Source of the DNA: Acidobacteriaceae bacterium
Lineage (GTDB): Bacteria; Acidobacteriota; Terriglobia; Terriglobales; Acidobacteriaceae
Direction: 5' to 3'
Length of the DNA stretch: 64,000 nucleotides
NCBI GenBank assembly: GCA_903642235.1
Contig: CAHJWL010000005.1
Location: 186,001-250,000, forward strand
Under the pieces are notes generated by a model, which had not been told where the DNA came from, made no database searches, and was given only the letters and a program-made list of their open reading frames with translations. The translations under genes were made by a program, and so were the position numbers. This document shows, one piece after another, positions 18,760-54,469 of the stretch; position 1 is the first letter of the stretch, and each line of letters begins with the position of its first letter.

Positions 18760-19135
18760 CCGGCACTCGTCCGGTGTTCCGGTCGCGCGGGTGCCGGGTG
18801 CGATGGTCTGGTCAGGGCGCAATCACGCCGCTTCGACAAGTACCCCAAGTCCCGAGCACAACTGCCCTGCCTCTTGATTTGTGACTTACGCGCTCGGAAG
18901 CACGTCTCGCCTAGAATTCCTCCAGAGGCGACTTTACGATTCTGGAGCTATGTGCCCGCGTTGTGATGTGACTGTTGCCGGGCTATGCGGCAAGGCAAAC
19001 CCTTCCATGATGCGAGAAGAGGCACTATTCCGGCGCGAGGCCGATGCTATTCTTTTCTGTAGAAGATTTGTGCTCAATATTGAAAACCATACGACGTAGT
19101 AGGTCCGTTGTGTGGGATAGGCCCCTCGAGACACG
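18760..19135. other. Intergenic region, 376 bases, with a possible operator half-site pair
   Basis: No gene is supported; a 72-codon frame at 18881 lacks a ribosome site and coding character. Just after the upstream stop, CCGGCAC (18760-18766) can pair with GTGCCGG (18791-18797), but no T-run follows. At 19090-19101 the sequence TACGACGTAGTA lies 35 bases before the nitroreductase gene and resembles half-sites used by BlaI/CopY-type repressors (inference). Confidence 0.4.
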
Positions 19136-46960: not shown

Positions 46961-47569
46961 TCAAGCGGGATCAAGTTTTGCGAGCAGGGATTTCAAGGCG
47001 CGGCCGCGATGGCTGAGGGAGAGTTTTTCTTCGGGTTTCAGCTCGGCCATGGTGACGCCGAGGTCAGGCAGGAGGAAGAGCGGGTCGTAGCCGAAGCCCA
47101 AGTTGCCGCGGGGAATGGCGAGGATCTCGCCTTCGACGGTACCTTCGGCTTCGGCGAGGATTTGGCCGTCGCGGGCGAGAGCGAGAGCGCAGCGGTAGCG
47201 GGCCTCCCGGTCGCCATCGCGGGTGGTGGCGAGGGCGTCGAGGACGCAGAGGTTGTTGCGCTGGTCGGGTGGAAGGGGGCGGCGGGTGATGTAGTTGCGG
47301 TCGTCGGCGAAGCGGGCGGAGCGGACGCCGGGGGCGCCGTGGAGCGCGTCGATTTCGAGGCCGGAGTCGTCGGCGAGGACGGGCAGGCCGGGGGCGAGCC
47401 GGGAGTAGTAGATGGCTTTGGAGCGGGCGTTTTCGGCGAAGGTGGGGGCGTCTTCCGGGGGTGGCGGGATGGTGGCGAGGTTGGGGAGCGGCTCGATGTC
47501 GGCGTGGGCGGCGAAGTCGCGGAGTTTGCCGGGGTTGGAGGTGGCGGCGAAGAGAGGCATGTGTTCCAT
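46961..47569 (-). CDS. rdgB: XTP/dITP diphosphatase (RdgB/HAM1 family)
   Basis: House-cleaning pyrophosphatase that removes non-canonical purine nucleotides. Motifs ATSNPGKLRDF, FAENARSKA, VLADDSGLEIDAL, GFGYDPLF and LSHRGRALK are all present. The length of 202 residues is normal. The start is at 47569 or nine bases in, at 47560. It precedes the sdhC promoter region. Confidence 0.94.
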   Translation of the reverse strand: MEHMPLFAATSNPGKLRDFAAHADIEPLPNLATIPPPPEDAPTFAENARSKAIYYSRLAPGLPVLADDSGLEIDALHGAPGVRSARFADDRNYITRRPLPPDQRNNLCVLDALATTRDGDREARYRCALALARDGQILAEAEGTVEGEILAIPRGNLGFGYDPLFLLPDLGVTMAELKPEEKLSLSHRGRALKSLLAKLDPA

Positions 47570-47731: not shown

Positions 47732-48895
47732 CTAGTGGCAGCAGTGCTGGTGGTGGCCGTCGCCTGCGGGTGGGGCGTCGTCCATCATGCGGAGCATGGC
47801 GGGGCCGCCGGTGCGGAGGAAGCGCCAGAGAAGGACGGCGGTGACGGCGAGGAAGATGATGTTGAGGATGGAGGTGTAGTTCCAGCGGATGCTCTCGGTC
47901 ATGATGCGGGCGGCGCGGTGCTGGGGGATGAGGTGGAGGGCGCTGAAGAGGAACTCGACGGCGAGCGCGGCGAGAGCCATCGCGGCGTAGAAGGTGACGA
48001 AGAGGATCCCGGCGACCTTGAGGCCGTAGTACTTGCGGTAGATGTTGAGGATGGGAAGGATGATGAGGTCGGCGAAGAGGAAGGCGATGACGCCGCCGAA
48101 GGAGATGCCGCCGTTCCAAAGCACAGCCGCGAGGGGGACGTTGCCGACCGAGCAGACGAAGGAGAGGACGGCGACGAGCGGGCCGATGAGCGGGCCCCAG
48201 ACTTTGGTGAGGACGGGATGGCCGGTGAGGAAGAAGCCCTGCCAGACGTGCTGCGGGACCCAGGCGGCGAGGCAGCCGGAGATGAGCAGACCGCCGCCGA
48301 TATCGGGCCAGAGGGAGTACCAGTCCATCCAGAAATAGTGGCTGGTGGCGGTGAAGCCCTTCGCGGAGGTAAGTTTTTGCCAGAAGCTGCCCTGATGGAG
48401 GCTCATGTCCATGGCGGCGTGGCCTTCCATGCGGCCGACGAGTCCCTCTTCGGCCTGCTTGCGGGCGGCGGCGATGAGCTTCGGCGTGAGGGTGGCGCGG
48501 AGCATGAGGACGATGAGGACGATCATGATGGGGCCGCCGGTGAACTCGGCCAGGGTGAACTGCCAGCCGAGCAGGACGGCAAGGAGGACGCTGAGTTCCA
48601 CGACCAGATTCGTCGATGCGAACTGGAAGGCGATGGCGGCGATGAAGTCCGCGCCCTTGCGGAAGAGTGAGCGGGCGAGCGCGGTGGCGGCATAGGAGCA
48701 GGAGGAGCTGGCGGCGCCGAGGGCGGAGGCGACGAGGATGGTTCTGGGCGAGGAATTGGGCAGGAGCTTGCCTAACTGCTCCTTGGAGACGACGGCCTCG
48801 ACGATGGCGGAGAGAAGAAATCCGAGGCAGAGGGCCCAGAGCAGCTCCCATGCCATGATGCCGGACATCCGGAGCGCGTGAAGAAGTGCATGCAT
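47732..48895 (-). CDS. ArsP/YraQ-type permease with His/Cys tail
   Basis: 387 residues, about eight to ten helices, of the DUF318/ArsP-YraQ permease family, which exports organoarsenicals or other metal compounds. SALGAASSSCSYAATALARSLFRKG and the paired VCSVGNVPLAAVLWNGGISFGGV are the duplicated core. The C-terminus GDGHHQHCCH is a likely metal-binding tail. The start is 24 bases after the Met-rich exported protein gene. Confidence 0.85.
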   Translation of the reverse strand: MHALLHALRMSGIMAWELLWALCLGFLLSAIVEAVVSKEQLGKLLPNSSPRTILVASALGAASSSCSYAATALARSLFRKGADFIAAIAFQFASTNLVVELSVLLAVLLGWQFTLAEFTGGPIMIVLIVLMLRATLTPKLIAAARKQAEEGLVGRMEGHAAMDMSLHQGSFWQKLTSAKGFTATSHYFWMDWYSLWPDIGGGLLISGCLAAWVPQHVWQGFFLTGHPVLTKVWGPLIGPLVAVLSFVCSVGNVPLAAVLWNGGISFGGVIAFLFADLIILPILNIYRKYYGLKVAGILFVTFYAAMALAALAVEFLFSALHLIPQHRAARIMTESIRWNYTSILNIIFLAVTAVLLWRFLRTGGPAMLRMMDDAPPAGDGHHQHCCH

Positions 48896-48919
48896 GCGTG
48901 TATTCCTCGAAGCGGCGCT

Positions 48920-50401
48920 TTATTTGGAGTTGATGCGAAAACGGACGGAGGCAACGACGCCGAAGGGGTGTGCGCCATAGATTCCGGTCAATGCGCCAGG
49001 GGTGGTGTAGCTGGTGAACTGCGCGCCGGGGGCGGCGAGAAGATGCGGCGCGATGTGCAGATCGTGGTCATAGCCAGCGGTGTAGGCGGCGACGTGGCCG
49101 AGGGGGCTTTCTGCGAAACCCGGTGGAAGCTGCGAGCCGGGTGGAAGCAGAAGTTCGTTGGAGCGGCCGGTATTTTCGAGACGCGTCCAGATGTAGTTTG
49201 TGGAGGCGAACTGCAGCAGCGCTTCCGCGAGGTAGCTGTTTTCTTTGCTGTTGTCGGCAAGGGAGCGGGTTCGGCCCCAGAGCAGGGTGGCGGAGAGGTT
49301 AGCGGAGCGCTGGCCGCTGCCGATGTCGCGGCCGAGGGGGCGGTTGACCATGACGCTGGCGGTCTGGCGGCTTTGAGCGTCCTTGGGATAGAGCGATTCG
49401 GGGCTGGTCAGGTGGGCCCAGGAGTATTGAGCGGACCAGTTGGCAGATGGGACAAACGTCAGGCGCGAGCTGTAGCTGTCGATGGCGTGGCCGTTCGGAG
49501 AGGGCTCGAAGTGCCAGCGGGCCTCGGTGGGCTCGGCGCCATGGAAGCCGGACTCTTCAAAGCGCAGCCAGCGCCAGGTGAAGCCCGCGGTGAGGACGTT
49601 GAAGGCGATGTGGGTGGAGTCCTGCTGGTGGTGGCCGAGGGCGGCGATAGGATCTTCGGACGCGGACATGCGGTGGGGATACGCGGTGGGGCCGATGGCC
49701 GGATCACCGACCGGCGCGGCGTAGAAGCTGACGAGGGTTCGCTCGCTGGTCTTCCAGTCGTAGAGGGCGGCGACCTCCATGAAGAAGTCGTGCGGGTGCT
49801 GGCCGTCGACGATCGGGGCGCCTGAAGCAGTCTCCCCTTGCTGAAAAAGCTCGGGGTAGTAACGATGGGTGATCGTGGCCGGCTCGAGCGAAAACATGGC
49901 GCGCAGCGTGAGCTGTCCGGGGCCGAGCCGGCGCATGGCCATGGGCATGATCCAGTTGGTGGAGAAGAGCTTGTCGGCGCCACGGCGCGGTGCGGGTGAG
50001 ACAGGCTGGACGGCCTGCTGCTGGGTATCGGCGAGAAAGGCGTTGCCGTGCAGCATAAACATCCAGAGGCCCCGACTGGTCATGAGCATGGGCATGGGTG
50101 TCGAGGGCGGCTCGATGCTGGTGCCGGAGGCGCTATGGTTGAGAACAGAGCCGCGCAGATCGCCCGCGGGCGCCATCATGCCGGTCATACTCTCCATGGT
50201 TCCCGTGGCGGACGGCGGCATAGTCATGCCCGGCATGGTCTGCATGGAAGGAGCTGTTTGACGGTCGGCGGTTGTCGGGGAGGGCATGGTCATGCCCGGC
50301 ATGTCCGGCATATCCGGCATAGAAGAGGGCTGTTGAGAACGGGCGGTGGACGCGAGAAGGCACGGAAGGACCAGTGCAGCCGCAAGTACGTGAGACATCA
50401 T
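48920..50401 (-). CDS. Exported Met-rich protein, probable metal-handling outer-membrane protein
   Basis: 493 residues with a signal peptide (VLAAALVLPCLLASTARS). Residues 25-75 are packed with methionine motifs (MPDMPDMPGMTMP, MQTMPGMTMPP), a pattern typical of copper/silver-binding segments. The body is beta-rich with many aromatic strands ending in F/Y/W-x-polar patterns and a C-terminal VVASVRFRINSK, as in an outer-membrane barrel. It starts ATG 50401 after GGAGAG. Grouped with the permease and the Cys/Met-rich small gene. Confidence 0.78.
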   Translation of the reverse strand: MMSHVLAAALVLPCLLASTARSQQPSSMPDMPDMPGMTMPSPTTADRQTAPSMQTMPGMTMPPSATGTMESMTGMMAPAGDLRGSVLNHSASGTSIEPPSTPMPMLMTSRGLWMFMLHGNAFLADTQQQAVQPVSPAPRRGADKLFSTNWIMPMAMRRLGPGQLTLRAMFSLEPATITHRYYPELFQQGETASGAPIVDGQHPHDFFMEVAALYDWKTSERTLVSFYAAPVGDPAIGPTAYPHRMSASEDPIAALGHHQQDSTHIAFNVLTAGFTWRWLRFEESGFHGAEPTEARWHFEPSPNGHAIDSYSSRLTFVPSANWSAQYSWAHLTSPESLYPKDAQSRQTASVMVNRPLGRDIGSGQRSANLSATLLWGRTRSLADNSKENSYLAEALLQFASTNYIWTRLENTGRSNELLLPPGSQLPPGFAESPLGHVAAYTAGYDHDLHIAPHLLAAPGAQFTSYTTPGALTGIYGAHPFGVVASVRFRINSK

Positions 50402-50484
50402 GAGAGCTCTCTCCGGAGACGTTAAAGACACTGCAGGCGGAGACAACGGTGGTTGTCCTCGCGGGAGGCAGGAGAAGGGTCTCT

Positions 50485-50826
50485 TCAGATGCGGAGAGGT
50501 GGGGGGAAGGCAGGCGGCGGGGAGCCGAGGCAAGAGAGCCTGATAGGGCTCAGTCGATCGCAGGTTACGACAAAGGGCAGAGCGATGCTGAGCGGGGGAA
50601 GCGGAAGAGAGGCTTCGGAGCTTGCCGCGGCCTGTGCAGGGTGCTGCTTCGCGTGCATGGCACAGCAGGGTGGCGTCGTATGCTGATCCGGCATCGGCAT
50701 GGAACCGGTCATGGCGGTCTGGCAGCCCTGTTGGGAGCTCGCTAGGACATGACCGCAGAGCACGGGCGTGACAATGAGCGTGAGAAGACACAGCAACGTG
50801 AAACCGAGATGGAGGCCGCGCTTCAC
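50485..50826 (-). CDS. Small exported Cys/His/Met-rich protein
   Basis: 113 residues: signal segment (LGFTLLCLLTLIVTPVLCGHV) then CQTAMTGSMPMPDQH and PCCAMHAKQHPAQ, a metal-binding-type cluster similar in style to DUF2946/CopC-like small periplasmic proteins. GTG start at 50826. It is first in the presumed transcript with the Met-rich protein and permease, and two TACGAC direct repeats lie just upstream. Confidence 0.7.
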   Translation of the reverse strand: MKRGLHLGFTLLCLLTLIVTPVLCGHVLASSQQGCQTAMTGSMPMPDQHTTPPCCAMHAKQHPAQAAASSEASLPLPPLSIALPFVVTCDRLSPIRLSCLGSPPPAFPPPLRI

Positions 50827-51301
50827 TCACTCAAGTGTACGACTTTCAGTACGACGTATGCCTGCGGTGCATCGCGGATTTCAGAGGATTTGACGAACCT
50901 CGCCAGGAGACGTAGGTCGCATGGGCAGCATGAAAGCGCATACCGCAACACTGGGAAGATGATGCACACTGTCCTGGCTGCGACCTAAGGGAAGAACGAC
51001 CGAGACGATGGATCGAGGCTACTGCGGTGGTTGAAACTCCAACTGCGCTAGACGCGAACCGTTGATCTGTTGATTCGTGGCTCCGTGGATCCGTGGTCAA
51101 GCATGAAGACCCGCCTCTCACAACTGTTCACGAAGTCTTCCGTTCCCGCTCCCCTAGCTTCTGAGCGATTCCGGCAGTAGTTAGGGCGGATCGTCAGCTT
51201 TCGATAGCTGATCCGATGCGCCCTCTTGTCCTCGCCCAACGGTGCTGATCCTGGCGAGATCAATGGTGCAACTACGCCGACGGGGACTGCGTACGTAAGC
51301 C
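50827..51301. other. Intergenic region, 475 bases, with candidate operator and hairpin
   Basis: No gene is supported. TACGAC occurs at 50838-50843 and again at 50850-50855, twelve bases apart, immediately before the Cys/Met-rich gene; the second is part of TACGACGTA. At 51184-51222, GGATC-(GT)-CAGCT pairs with AGCTGATCC. The first looks like a repressor site, the second like a leader or terminator hairpin. Confidence 0.5.
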
Positions 51302-51784
51302 ATGCGAACCCTGACTCTTGTTTTGTTTTCAGTGACGCTTTTGCTGTGCGGTGCCTACGCGGGCATGGCTTTGTTCTGTCAGATAGGTGTGCTGCCCGCG
51401 ATGCGCCGCCTGAACCGCGGAGCTTATGTCGCCACCTGGGGCATCCTTGACGGCCTAATGGAGCGCAGCATGCCACCGTACAAGGTCACGCTGTTGGCCG
51501 TGTCTCTCGCCAGCGCCAGTTGTCTCTACGCACAACACTGCGCTCAACTAGCCGCAGCGACGGCGTTCAGCTTCTTGCTTAGTCTCGGAGGACTGGTTTT
51601 GACGATTGGGAAACAAGTGCCCCTTAATCGGGCGATCAGTGGCTTCCCGGAGAGCGAAGACGAACGCCTGCTCGTGGCTATGCGTGATCAGACGGAGAAA
51701 AACTTTGCCCTGCGATTGGGGATGGCTTTGCTGGCCTTCACTGCTCTGTGCGGAGGTATTGTGTTGTTCCCAATTTCGGCATAG
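51302..51784 (+). CDS. DUF1772 (anthrone oxygenase-like) membrane protein
   Basis: 160 residues with four helices (LTLVLFSVTLLLCGAYAGMALF; VTLLAVSLASASCLYAQH; AAATAFSFLLSLGGLVLTIG; LALLAFTALCGG-type end). QVPLNRAI and RDQTEKNFALR are the family's usual motifs. Function is unknown. It is convergent with the ABC transporter gene. Confidence 0.8.
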   Translation: MRTLTLVLFSVTLLLCGAYAGMALFCQIGVLPAMRRLNRGAYVATWGILDGLMERSMPPYKVTLLAVSLASASCLYAQHCAQLAAATAFSFLLSLGGLVLTIGKQVPLNRAISGFPESEDERLLVAMRDQTEKNFALRLGMALLAFTALCGGIVLFPISA

Positions 51785-53827: not shown

Positions 53828-54469
53828 TTACTTTGGATTCGGAGAGGCTGGCGGGGCGCTGGGAGCGTCTGGCGGGGTGGAGCTGGTTGCACCGGGCTGC
53901 GCGGTCGCAGGATCTGCGGCGGGCGGAGCGGGCGCTGGCGCGGCGTCGGCGAAGTTGACGAGCTCGATGTCGAAGATCAGATCGGCCCTGGGCGGGATCG
54001 CACCCTCGCGGCCGGCTTCTCCGTAGGCGAGCTGGTAGGGGATGTAGAGGCGACGCTTGCCGCCGACGCGCATACCGGTAAAGCCCGTATCCCAGCCCGG
54101 GATGACGCGGTGGGCGCCATAGGGAAAGGTGATGGGCTCCTGGCCGGCGTGGTCGTAGGAGGAGTCGAACTTGGTGCCGTCTGTCAGCCAGCCGGTGTAC
54201 TTGACGGTGTAGTACTTGTTCGGCGCGGCGAGGGGGCCTGTGCCGGTGATGACGTCAACATAGCGAAGGGAGTAGAGGGCCTTGGGCGCGGTGCTGACGG
54301 GCGGAACGCCGGGCGGGTTGTCGGTCTTGCTGGCAGTGGCAGACGACGCCGTGGGTGCCGCGGTGTGACGCGTTGCGGTCGTCGCCTTGTGGGTGGCAGT
54401 CCTGGCACTGGTCTGAGAGGCGAGCGGAAGTGCAGCGAAGAGAAGAGCGGCGGCTACGGGTCGAATCAT
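53828..54469 (-). CDS. FKBP-type peptidyl-prolyl isomerase, exported
   Basis: About 213 residues: signal (PVAAALLFAALPLASQTSA), Thr/Ala-rich spacer, then the FKBP domain with YTVKYTGWLTDGTKFDSS, VIPGWDTGFTGMRVGGKRRLYIPYQLAYGE and the end LIFDIELVNF. A Pro/Ala tail of about 35 residues follows. ATG 54469 is taken; a GTG at 54496 is an alternative. It ends 22 bases before the ABC gene, on the same strand. Confidence 0.9.
   Translation of the reverse strand: MIRPVAAALLFAALPLASQTSARTATHKATTATRHTAAPTASSATASKTDNPPGVPPVSTAPKALYSLRYVDVITGTGPLAAPNKYYTVKYTGWLTDGTKFDSSYDHAGQEPITFPYGAHRVIPGWDTGFTGMRVGGKRRLYIPYQLAYGEAGREGAIPPRADLIFDIELVNFADAAPAPAPPAADPATAQPGATSSTPPDAPSAPPASPNPK

Follow-up and report, generated by a model that had tools for sequence, protein, structure and literature searches.

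The window analysed here is a stretch of 64,000 nucleotides from contig CAHJWL010000005.1 of an Acidobacteriaceae bacterium with a 3.79 Mb genome, and it raises the question of how a cassette of three tandem genes is controlled and what the smallest of the three is for. The cassette described in the original prediction, a Cys/His/Met-rich small open reading frame (ORF), a Met-rich barrel gene and an ArsP permease gene with a GHHQHCCH tail, is present, with all three genes on the minus strand. The small ORF (50826..50485) has a GTG start and encodes 113 amino acids, including 7 Cys and several Met and His; an N-terminal signal-like hydrophobic stretch is followed by a Cys/His/Met-rich middle and a Pro-rich tail ending in ...SPPPAFPPPLRI-stop. 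The porin-like barrel ORF (50401..48920; 493 amino acids from its ATG, with a Met-rich N-terminal region) follows after a gap of 83 nt, and the ArsP_1 (PF03773) permease gene (48895..47732) encodes 387 amino acids with a His/Cys tail, GDGHHQHCCH, at its end. The small gene belongs to a class of fast-diverging ORFs that share a recurring tripeptide adjacent to the stop codon, are followed by a covarying hairpin, and recur before metal-efflux-type genes. It is probably a cis-acting, metal-responsive nascent-chain leader of the CutF/CruR type, copper being the most likely metal, that controls the barrel and permease genes through the hairpin, and we call it the leader below.

A search with the single leader sequence found it in just 2 of 120 genomes, its own included, and model searches of the window proteins gave no Pfam or NCBIfam match for it. 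The resulting impression of an orphan is misleading because the protein diverges so fast; in other genomes the barrel gene is preceded by a small Cys-rich ORF that shares this end but is otherwise spelled differently. We scored ORFs of at least 60 amino acids within 1100 nt upstream of the barrel at the best 80 of 301 named loci from a genome scan, and 48 of these 80 Acidobacteriota loci have one that ends exactly in Leu-Arg-Ile-stop (LRI-stop; 50485..50496 on the minus strand in the window), while six further loci have LRV (five) or MRV (one) ends. When the ends of all 3483 ORFs of at least 60 amino acids in the barrel loci are tallied, LRI occurs 49 times and the next commonest end 15 times. 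Among the LRI ends both the Leu codons (CTN or TTR) and the Arg codons (CGN or AGR) vary, which indicates selection on the peptide, and in seven leader pairs aligned as proteins third positions are favoured, with 216, 153 and 314 substitutions at codon positions 1, 2 and 3, respectively. In an alignment of 16 leaders, picked for their LRI end, Met1 is the only other invariant column, and four Cys are conserved at 90% or above. The Cys-Cys at residues 54-55 (codons at 50662..50667, minus strand) is among the most conserved Cys of the leaders and is a candidate metal site, 60 residues from the C-terminus; of the 43 barrel-type leaders with a Cys-Cys, 30 have the last one 57-60 residues before the C-terminal end and 13 have it at 64 to 148. 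An LRI end was the selection criterion for the barrel set of 48 leaders (the window and 47 relatives) and for alignment A2, and an LR[I/V] end for the rows of the outer membrane OEP set (see below); counts of the three terminal residues within these sets therefore hold by construction, and the fair counts are those made per locus. Locus L121, whose ORF has an LRI end and an odd Cys pattern, was excluded from the codon and hairpin sets, and the L186 row of the OEP residue tallies is a chance ORF ending in LRV, the true leader there ending in LRI.

Several other features of these ORFs and their neighbours deserve mention. The stop codon is TGA in 34 of the 48 barrel leaders and TAG in 24 of 29 OEP leaders, compared to 270 TGA, 161 TAG and 161 TAA in the long open frames of the barrel loci; this skew may come from hairpin pairing or from release-factor choice. 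In L142 the barrel is preceded by a Cys-rich ORF ending in SFLI-stop. At two loci whose barrel has no LRI leader (L098:3363-3938 and L103:3327-3905), a gene for an extracytoplasmic function (ECF) sigma factor with a Cys-rich tail stands before the barrel, as do short Cys-rich peptides that are metallothionein-like. At L065:696-1118, a weak relative of the window small protein (the match holds a stop) ends in ENRPPPATV and precedes a 435-amino-acid ORF that is TolC-like by eye.

Leaders of the same type are also found in front of other genes. A profile of the barrel leaders has matches in 19 of 150 family genomes, four of them not at a barrel gene and lying instead before a CusC/TolC-like gene of the OEP family (PF02321). 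A search for this OEP gene found it in 54 of 150 family genomes, and at the best 30 loci, which were fetched, 28 leaders end in LR[I/V] (27 LRI and 1 LRV), one ends in LKI and one reads through after LRI. The one OEP operon that we checked is cusCBA-like, with the OEP gene followed by genes for a CusB-like adaptor (RND_mfp) and a CusA/CzcA-family pump, both over cut-off. A profile of the OEP-type leaders in turn matches in 130 of 250 family genomes, and gives no match in the window genome. Forty of its matches, hand-picked from the list, were fetched, and all 40 end in LR[I/V/L] (36 LRI, 3 LRV and 1 LRL), a count that is partly circular since the profile covers the C-terminus. The genes behind these 40 are OEP (25), a protein of about 285 amino acids that looks exported (7), a CusA-type pump by eye (1), and genes of another kind or unclear (7). 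All seven loci with the ~285-amino-acid protein (L258, L263, L268, L269, L272, L273 and L277) have LRI leaders, and one member, that of L258, has no Pfam or NCBIfam match.

Across the phylum the leader profile has a match in 28 of 396 genomes, and the five matches outside the family end in LRI (one), LRR (one), AFLI (one) and SFLI (two), so other stop-adjacent ends, [S/A]FLI and LRR, exist. The OEP search across the phylum, in which few candidates were scored per genome, found same-family genomes only (5 of 396). In other Acidobacteriota families, loci L284, L285 and L286 have Cys-rich leader-like ORFs ending in [S/A]FLI-stop near genes that by eye are OEP-like or of CusA type, and [S/A]FLI-stop is possibly a second stop-adjacent end motif.

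What the leader end could do is suggested by the RNA around it. The Shine-Dalgarno (SD) region of the next gene can base-pair with the leader stop codon and the bases that directly follow it. In the window the predicted stem joins the Leu-Arg codons and the post-stop bases (5' arms within 50479..50498 on the minus strand, of which 50498-50492 cover the Leu and Arg codons and the bases just before them and 50483-50479 lie just after the stop) to the SD (3' arm, 50420-50409), which contains the SD-like GGAGAG of the barrel gene; its z-score against shuffles is -2.27. Three sets of loci were used to evaluate this pairing, with barrel and OEP starts set by a fixed rule (the closest start that has an SD-like sequence); L189 was excluded from the OEP set and L208 (the LKI leader) retained, and L259, L265, L276 and L281 were excluded from the third set, drawn from the 40 profile matches. 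The mean duplex energy of the stop plus 17 nt with the SD arm is -12.0 kcal/mol in the barrel set (n=48), -13.6 in the OEP set (n=29) and -14.5 in the third set (n=36), and with swapped partners it is -9.2 +/- 0.4, -10.5 +/- 0.5 and -11.3 +/- 0.4, respectively; in each set 0 of 200 swaps was as good as the true pairing. The swaps keep each arm and break only the pairing between loci, and the signal is therefore covariation. Ordinary co-directional gene pairs (n=114) have a mean of -8.6 kcal/mol, and duplexes at or below -12 are found in 58%, 66% and 81% of the barrel, OEP and third sets and in 16% of ordinary pairs.

These features suggest a mechanism in which the leader would be translated and exported co-translationally, and a ribosome at its Leu-Arg-Ile-stop would sit on the 5' arm of the hairpin whose 3' arm hides the barrel SD. 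A ribosome that dwells there, through arrest or slow termination, would cover most of the 5' arms and expose the start site, so that barrel and permease are made; metal bound to the Cys/His/Met part of the nascent chain, most plausibly copper, would change the dwell time. Such a metal site, about 60 residues from the peptidyl-transferase centre, might lie near the far side of the translocon. The small protein might instead be an ordinary exported metal chaperone or scavenger that is merely co-transcribed with the barrel and permease, and its exported appearance and its wealth of Cys, His and Met agree with that; we consider this very unlikely, however, since beyond some Cys little is kept except the last three residues, which lie beside a covarying hairpin that hides an SD, and a chaperone has no obvious reason to conserve a C-terminus abutting the stop or to stand before unrelated genes.

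A second alternative is polarity of the sort known from CruR, in which stalling on the leader would shield the transcript from Rho and metal would relieve the stall, so that copper switches the barrel off. Rho-linked polarity is CruR's own mode in the descriptions drawn on here, and the leader 3' ends are indeed C-rich on the coding strand, with a mean C minus G of 0.19 against 0.08 in the barrel gene and the higher value in 46 of 48 cases. The intergenic regions, on the other hand, show no clear C enrichment over the barrel gene (higher in 24 of 48), translational control accounts better than Rho polarity for a covarying hairpin on the SD, and leaders that head efflux-type genes fit a switch that metal turns on rather than off; Rho polarity is thus unlikely.

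A number of observations weigh against hairpin control by a pausing leader ribosome. No LR[I/V] or MRV end is found upstream of the barrel at 26 of the 80 loci (one has LRT, one LQI and one SFLI, and the remaining 23 have none of these ends, two of them for want of upstream sequence), and the barrel is therefore not always in need of a leader. Related genomes are dependent, so the sizes of the hairpin sets exceed the number of independent events, and the third set was chosen with a profile that includes the LRI end. Fold z-scores of the whole region are uneven, with a mean of -1.5 and values below -2 in 18 of 48. When the 5' side is masked as far as 12 nt beyond the stop, mean pairing of the SD and start falls only from 0.65 to 0.54, and in the window from 0.59 to 0.53, where a weak local 4-bp hairpin is left. 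A leader that terminates normally, without arrest, could also open the hairpin, and for CutF, the closest parallel (see below), a stalled form was not detected according to the sections of the source papers used here.

The original prediction also assigned the cassette to metal handling, and gene context supports this: the plasmid neighbours of barrel relatives are metal genes, leaders precede CusC/TolC-like genes, and in one relative the permease gene closes an operon headed by such a leader. The barrel itself has no Pfam or NCBIfam family at the limits used, apart from chance-level Pfam matches, and a sequence search of the PDB gave one chance-level match. Its AlphaFold model (mean predicted local distance difference test score, pLDDT, 72.6) resembles general porins, with Foldseek E values of 1e-9 to 2e-8 and template modelling (TM) scores by target length of 0.47-0.69 among the 50 matches listed. 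It is found in 68 of 120 family genomes, its own included, and its best named relatives carry the labels Edaphobacter and Granulicella. More distant relatives (35-39% identity) are on two Sphingobium plasmids and one Pontibacter plasmid (3 of 72,556 records). Both Sphingobium barrels have DUF305 and MerR genes nearby, and one also a heavy-metal P-type ATPase gene, while the Pontibacter barrel lies near genes for a copper P-type ATPase and a four-helix copper-binding protein. Both Sphingobium plasmids also have, upstream of the barrel, a small CxxC ORF ending in ...APPPP[R/K]IA-stop and a second small Cys-rich ORF between it and the barrel; the CxxC ORFs (L159:5055-5393 and L161:5030-5374) have no Pfam family over cut-off.

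The permease is a clear PF03773 member (E 7.7e-64; 216 bits against a cut-off of 32.3), and against the SO_0444 Cu/Zn efflux model NF033936 it scores 43 bits, under the equivalog cut-off of 300. It is present in 9 of 120 family genomes, its own included, and the two same-genus genomes covered by this search both lack a match. In the same-genus locus L044 the barrel is directly followed not by a permease gene but by an ORF that resembles window ORF 46961-47569, which we take to be rdgB-like. In genome G119 a large gene of pump size (a pump by eye) has its end overlapped by the permease gene, within a same-strand run headed by an LRI leader, and the permease therefore probably joined the barrel operon from a metal-efflux setting of this kind. 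Divergent from the cassette is a membrane-like ORF of 160 amino acids (51302-51784, plus strand) that has no Pfam or NCBIfam match.

It had been proposed that the cassette is controlled by a BlaI/CopY-type repressor at a tandem TACGAC operator at its front. The direct repeat is there: its copies at 50838 and 50850, spaced by 12 bases, span 50838..50855 and lie 12-29 nt ahead of the leader start. The window has more copies of the hexamer than expected (45 against 13.8), and likewise more spaced pairs with at most one mismatch (3 against 0.09). The other two pairs, at 54152 and 7817, carry one mismatch each, and that at 54152 is inside an ORF by eye. The similar sequence noted before the ORF that had been named as a nitroreductase, TACGACGTAGTA, is likewise present at 19090..19101. 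The element TACNACGTNGTA, with at most one mismatch, occurs once, and 22 of 100 shuffles contain it at least once. The motif does not recur before other genes beyond control level genome-wide: with up to three mismatches the extended spaced pair has 4 matches including itself, against 13 and 17 for a reversed-pattern control, and its single exact match in the genome is itself; TACKACGTMGTA with at most one mismatch has 7 sites against 40 for its control, and its only perfect copy in the genome is the TACGACGTAGTA site at 19090. Among the 48 leaders of the barrel set, only that of the window has a perfect TACGAC pair upstream. Two BlaI-family genes are in the genome; each is preceded, by eye, by a different palindrome of the CTCCTA..TAGGAG type rather than by TACGAC. 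Thus the pair is real, exceeds chance expectation within the window and lies directly before the leader start, but its regulatory meaning does not hold up; repressor control at this site is extremely improbable, and the likely control element is the small gene itself.

If the small gene is indeed such an element, one soil Acidobacteriota family would have a widespread class of leaders that link the sensing of metal to export and to the termination of translation and that precede unrelated genes. The class would also point to probable metal genes left without a Pfam name, namely the barrel and the ~285-amino-acid family. CutF and CruR are known examples of nascent-chain leaders that respond to metal, and the passages on these that we used describe no conserved tripeptide abutting the stop. 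Our sources for this and the following comparisons are PMC9426467, PMC9973294, PMC8456105, PMC10987492, PMC12992588, PMC13233979, PMC11347161 and PMC11549390. CutF, of the Rhodobacter capsulatus cutFOG operon, requires translation, Sec export, its Cys motif, its Pro-rich C-terminus and a stem-loop that hides the SD for copper-dependent production of CutO (PMC9973294, PMC8456105). The leaders resemble it in being small, apparently Sec-exported and poorly conserved, in having a Cys motif and a Pro-rich C-terminus, and in the predicted intergenic stem-loop over the next SD; CutF-like proteins head metal genes, their commonest neighbour being an OEP gene, and the leaders here likewise precede OEP genes. 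The CutF end, ...PEPEGPPPRL, also has a penultimate Arg and a hydrophobic last residue. They differ in that LRI-stop is the most frequent end here and Pro comes some residues earlier, and in that the genes behind the leaders here include the porin-like barrel and the ~285-amino-acid protein without a Pfam family. When the filters for CutF-like proteins given in PMC9973294 are applied (under 150 amino acids, PP within the last 15 residues, a same-strand gene within 1000 nt and a Sec signal), the window leader passes each, the Sec signal being judged by eye; the stem-loop that shields the next SD, a further CutF-like property, is predicted in the window and covaries in three sets. The leader anatomy thus matches the CutF scheme with another end motif. 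The term Acidobacteri* has no match in the main text of PMC9973294, and the supplementary lists of CutF-like proteins may already hold such leaders.

CruR of Bordetella pertussis, a DUF2946 protein, combines arrest at RAPP with Rho, and as far as the passages used here go it is, as the leaders here probably are, a copper-responsive leader ORF with a Cys motif and a C-terminal arrest motif, standing before an outer-membrane protein gene; its Cys-to-arrest-motif spacing is conserved. Membership in DUF2946 (PF11162) was looked for and gave no match in the window leader, 8 more barrel-type leaders, 6 OEP-type leaders or the window genome, and R[A/G]PP occurs in 0 of 48 barrel-type leaders. In place of the CXXC of CruR the window leader has GC..CC, and several relatives have CXXC by eye. 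DUF2946 proteins are present in 7 of 120 family genomes; the four that were fetched carry RAPP or RGPP near the C-terminus and are not barrel leaders. The NSP-stop, NAP-stop and DGMK-stop monitors (PMC10987492) are leaders of Sec-pathway genes that are described as stalling with a stop codon in the A-site, most likely so for DGMK-stop. Their arrest at a stop codon at the leader end resembles what we propose, and they differ in their end motifs and in their signal, which is protein export, not metal.

A further possibility, tentative and in our judgement more doubtful than the general leader mechanism, is that the leader senses metal by acting as a naturally occurring release-factor trap of bacterial origin. 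The Pro-rich ...LR[I/V] end, released or nearly so, would stay in the exit tunnel and hold release factor 1 or 2 (RF1/RF2) at the leader stop codon; export through SecYEG would pull the chain out and end the arrest, and metal on the Cys-rich part would block the pulling, keep the ribosome over the 5' arm and so turn the outer-membrane gene on. CutF, with its ...PPPRL-stop, might work alike. No link between CutF and apidaecin was found in the literature searched, by co-mention of the names or by topic. Type II proline-rich antimicrobial peptides (PrAMPs; apidaecin and drosocin) act at stop codons by trapping release factors, with the penultimate Arg contacting the glutamine of the release factor GGQ motif and the hydrophobic C-terminal residue nearing the P-site tRNA, according to the portions of the papers listed above. 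In a screen of apidaecin variants expressed endogenously, the last two residues are reported there as nearly immutable, and the third-last Pro is replaceable by Leu, giving a ...LRL end. They differ from the leaders in being free insect peptides that act in trans, whereas the leader would act as a bacterial nascent chain in cis, and apidaecin's nearly immutable P11 and R12, at 8 and 7 from its end, are matched at best partly in the leaders. Also speaking against a trap, Pro stands at position -8 in 58% of the 48 barrel leaders and Arg is not the rule at -7, the OEP-type leaders have neither, and the [S/A]FLI ends are without Arg. The leaders do share with Type II PrAMPs a Pro-rich tail, a penultimate Arg and a hydrophobic C-terminal residue, the window leader ending in ...PPPLRI, and a trap would explain why a C-terminal tag impairs CutF and why the CutF tail showed no stalling when moved into the LepB-SecM sensor, where, to judge from the design, more protein follows it. 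The comparison thus offers a possible explanation of these otherwise unexplained CutF results, and with it a candidate, open to direct test, for a release-factor trap encoded on the chromosome.

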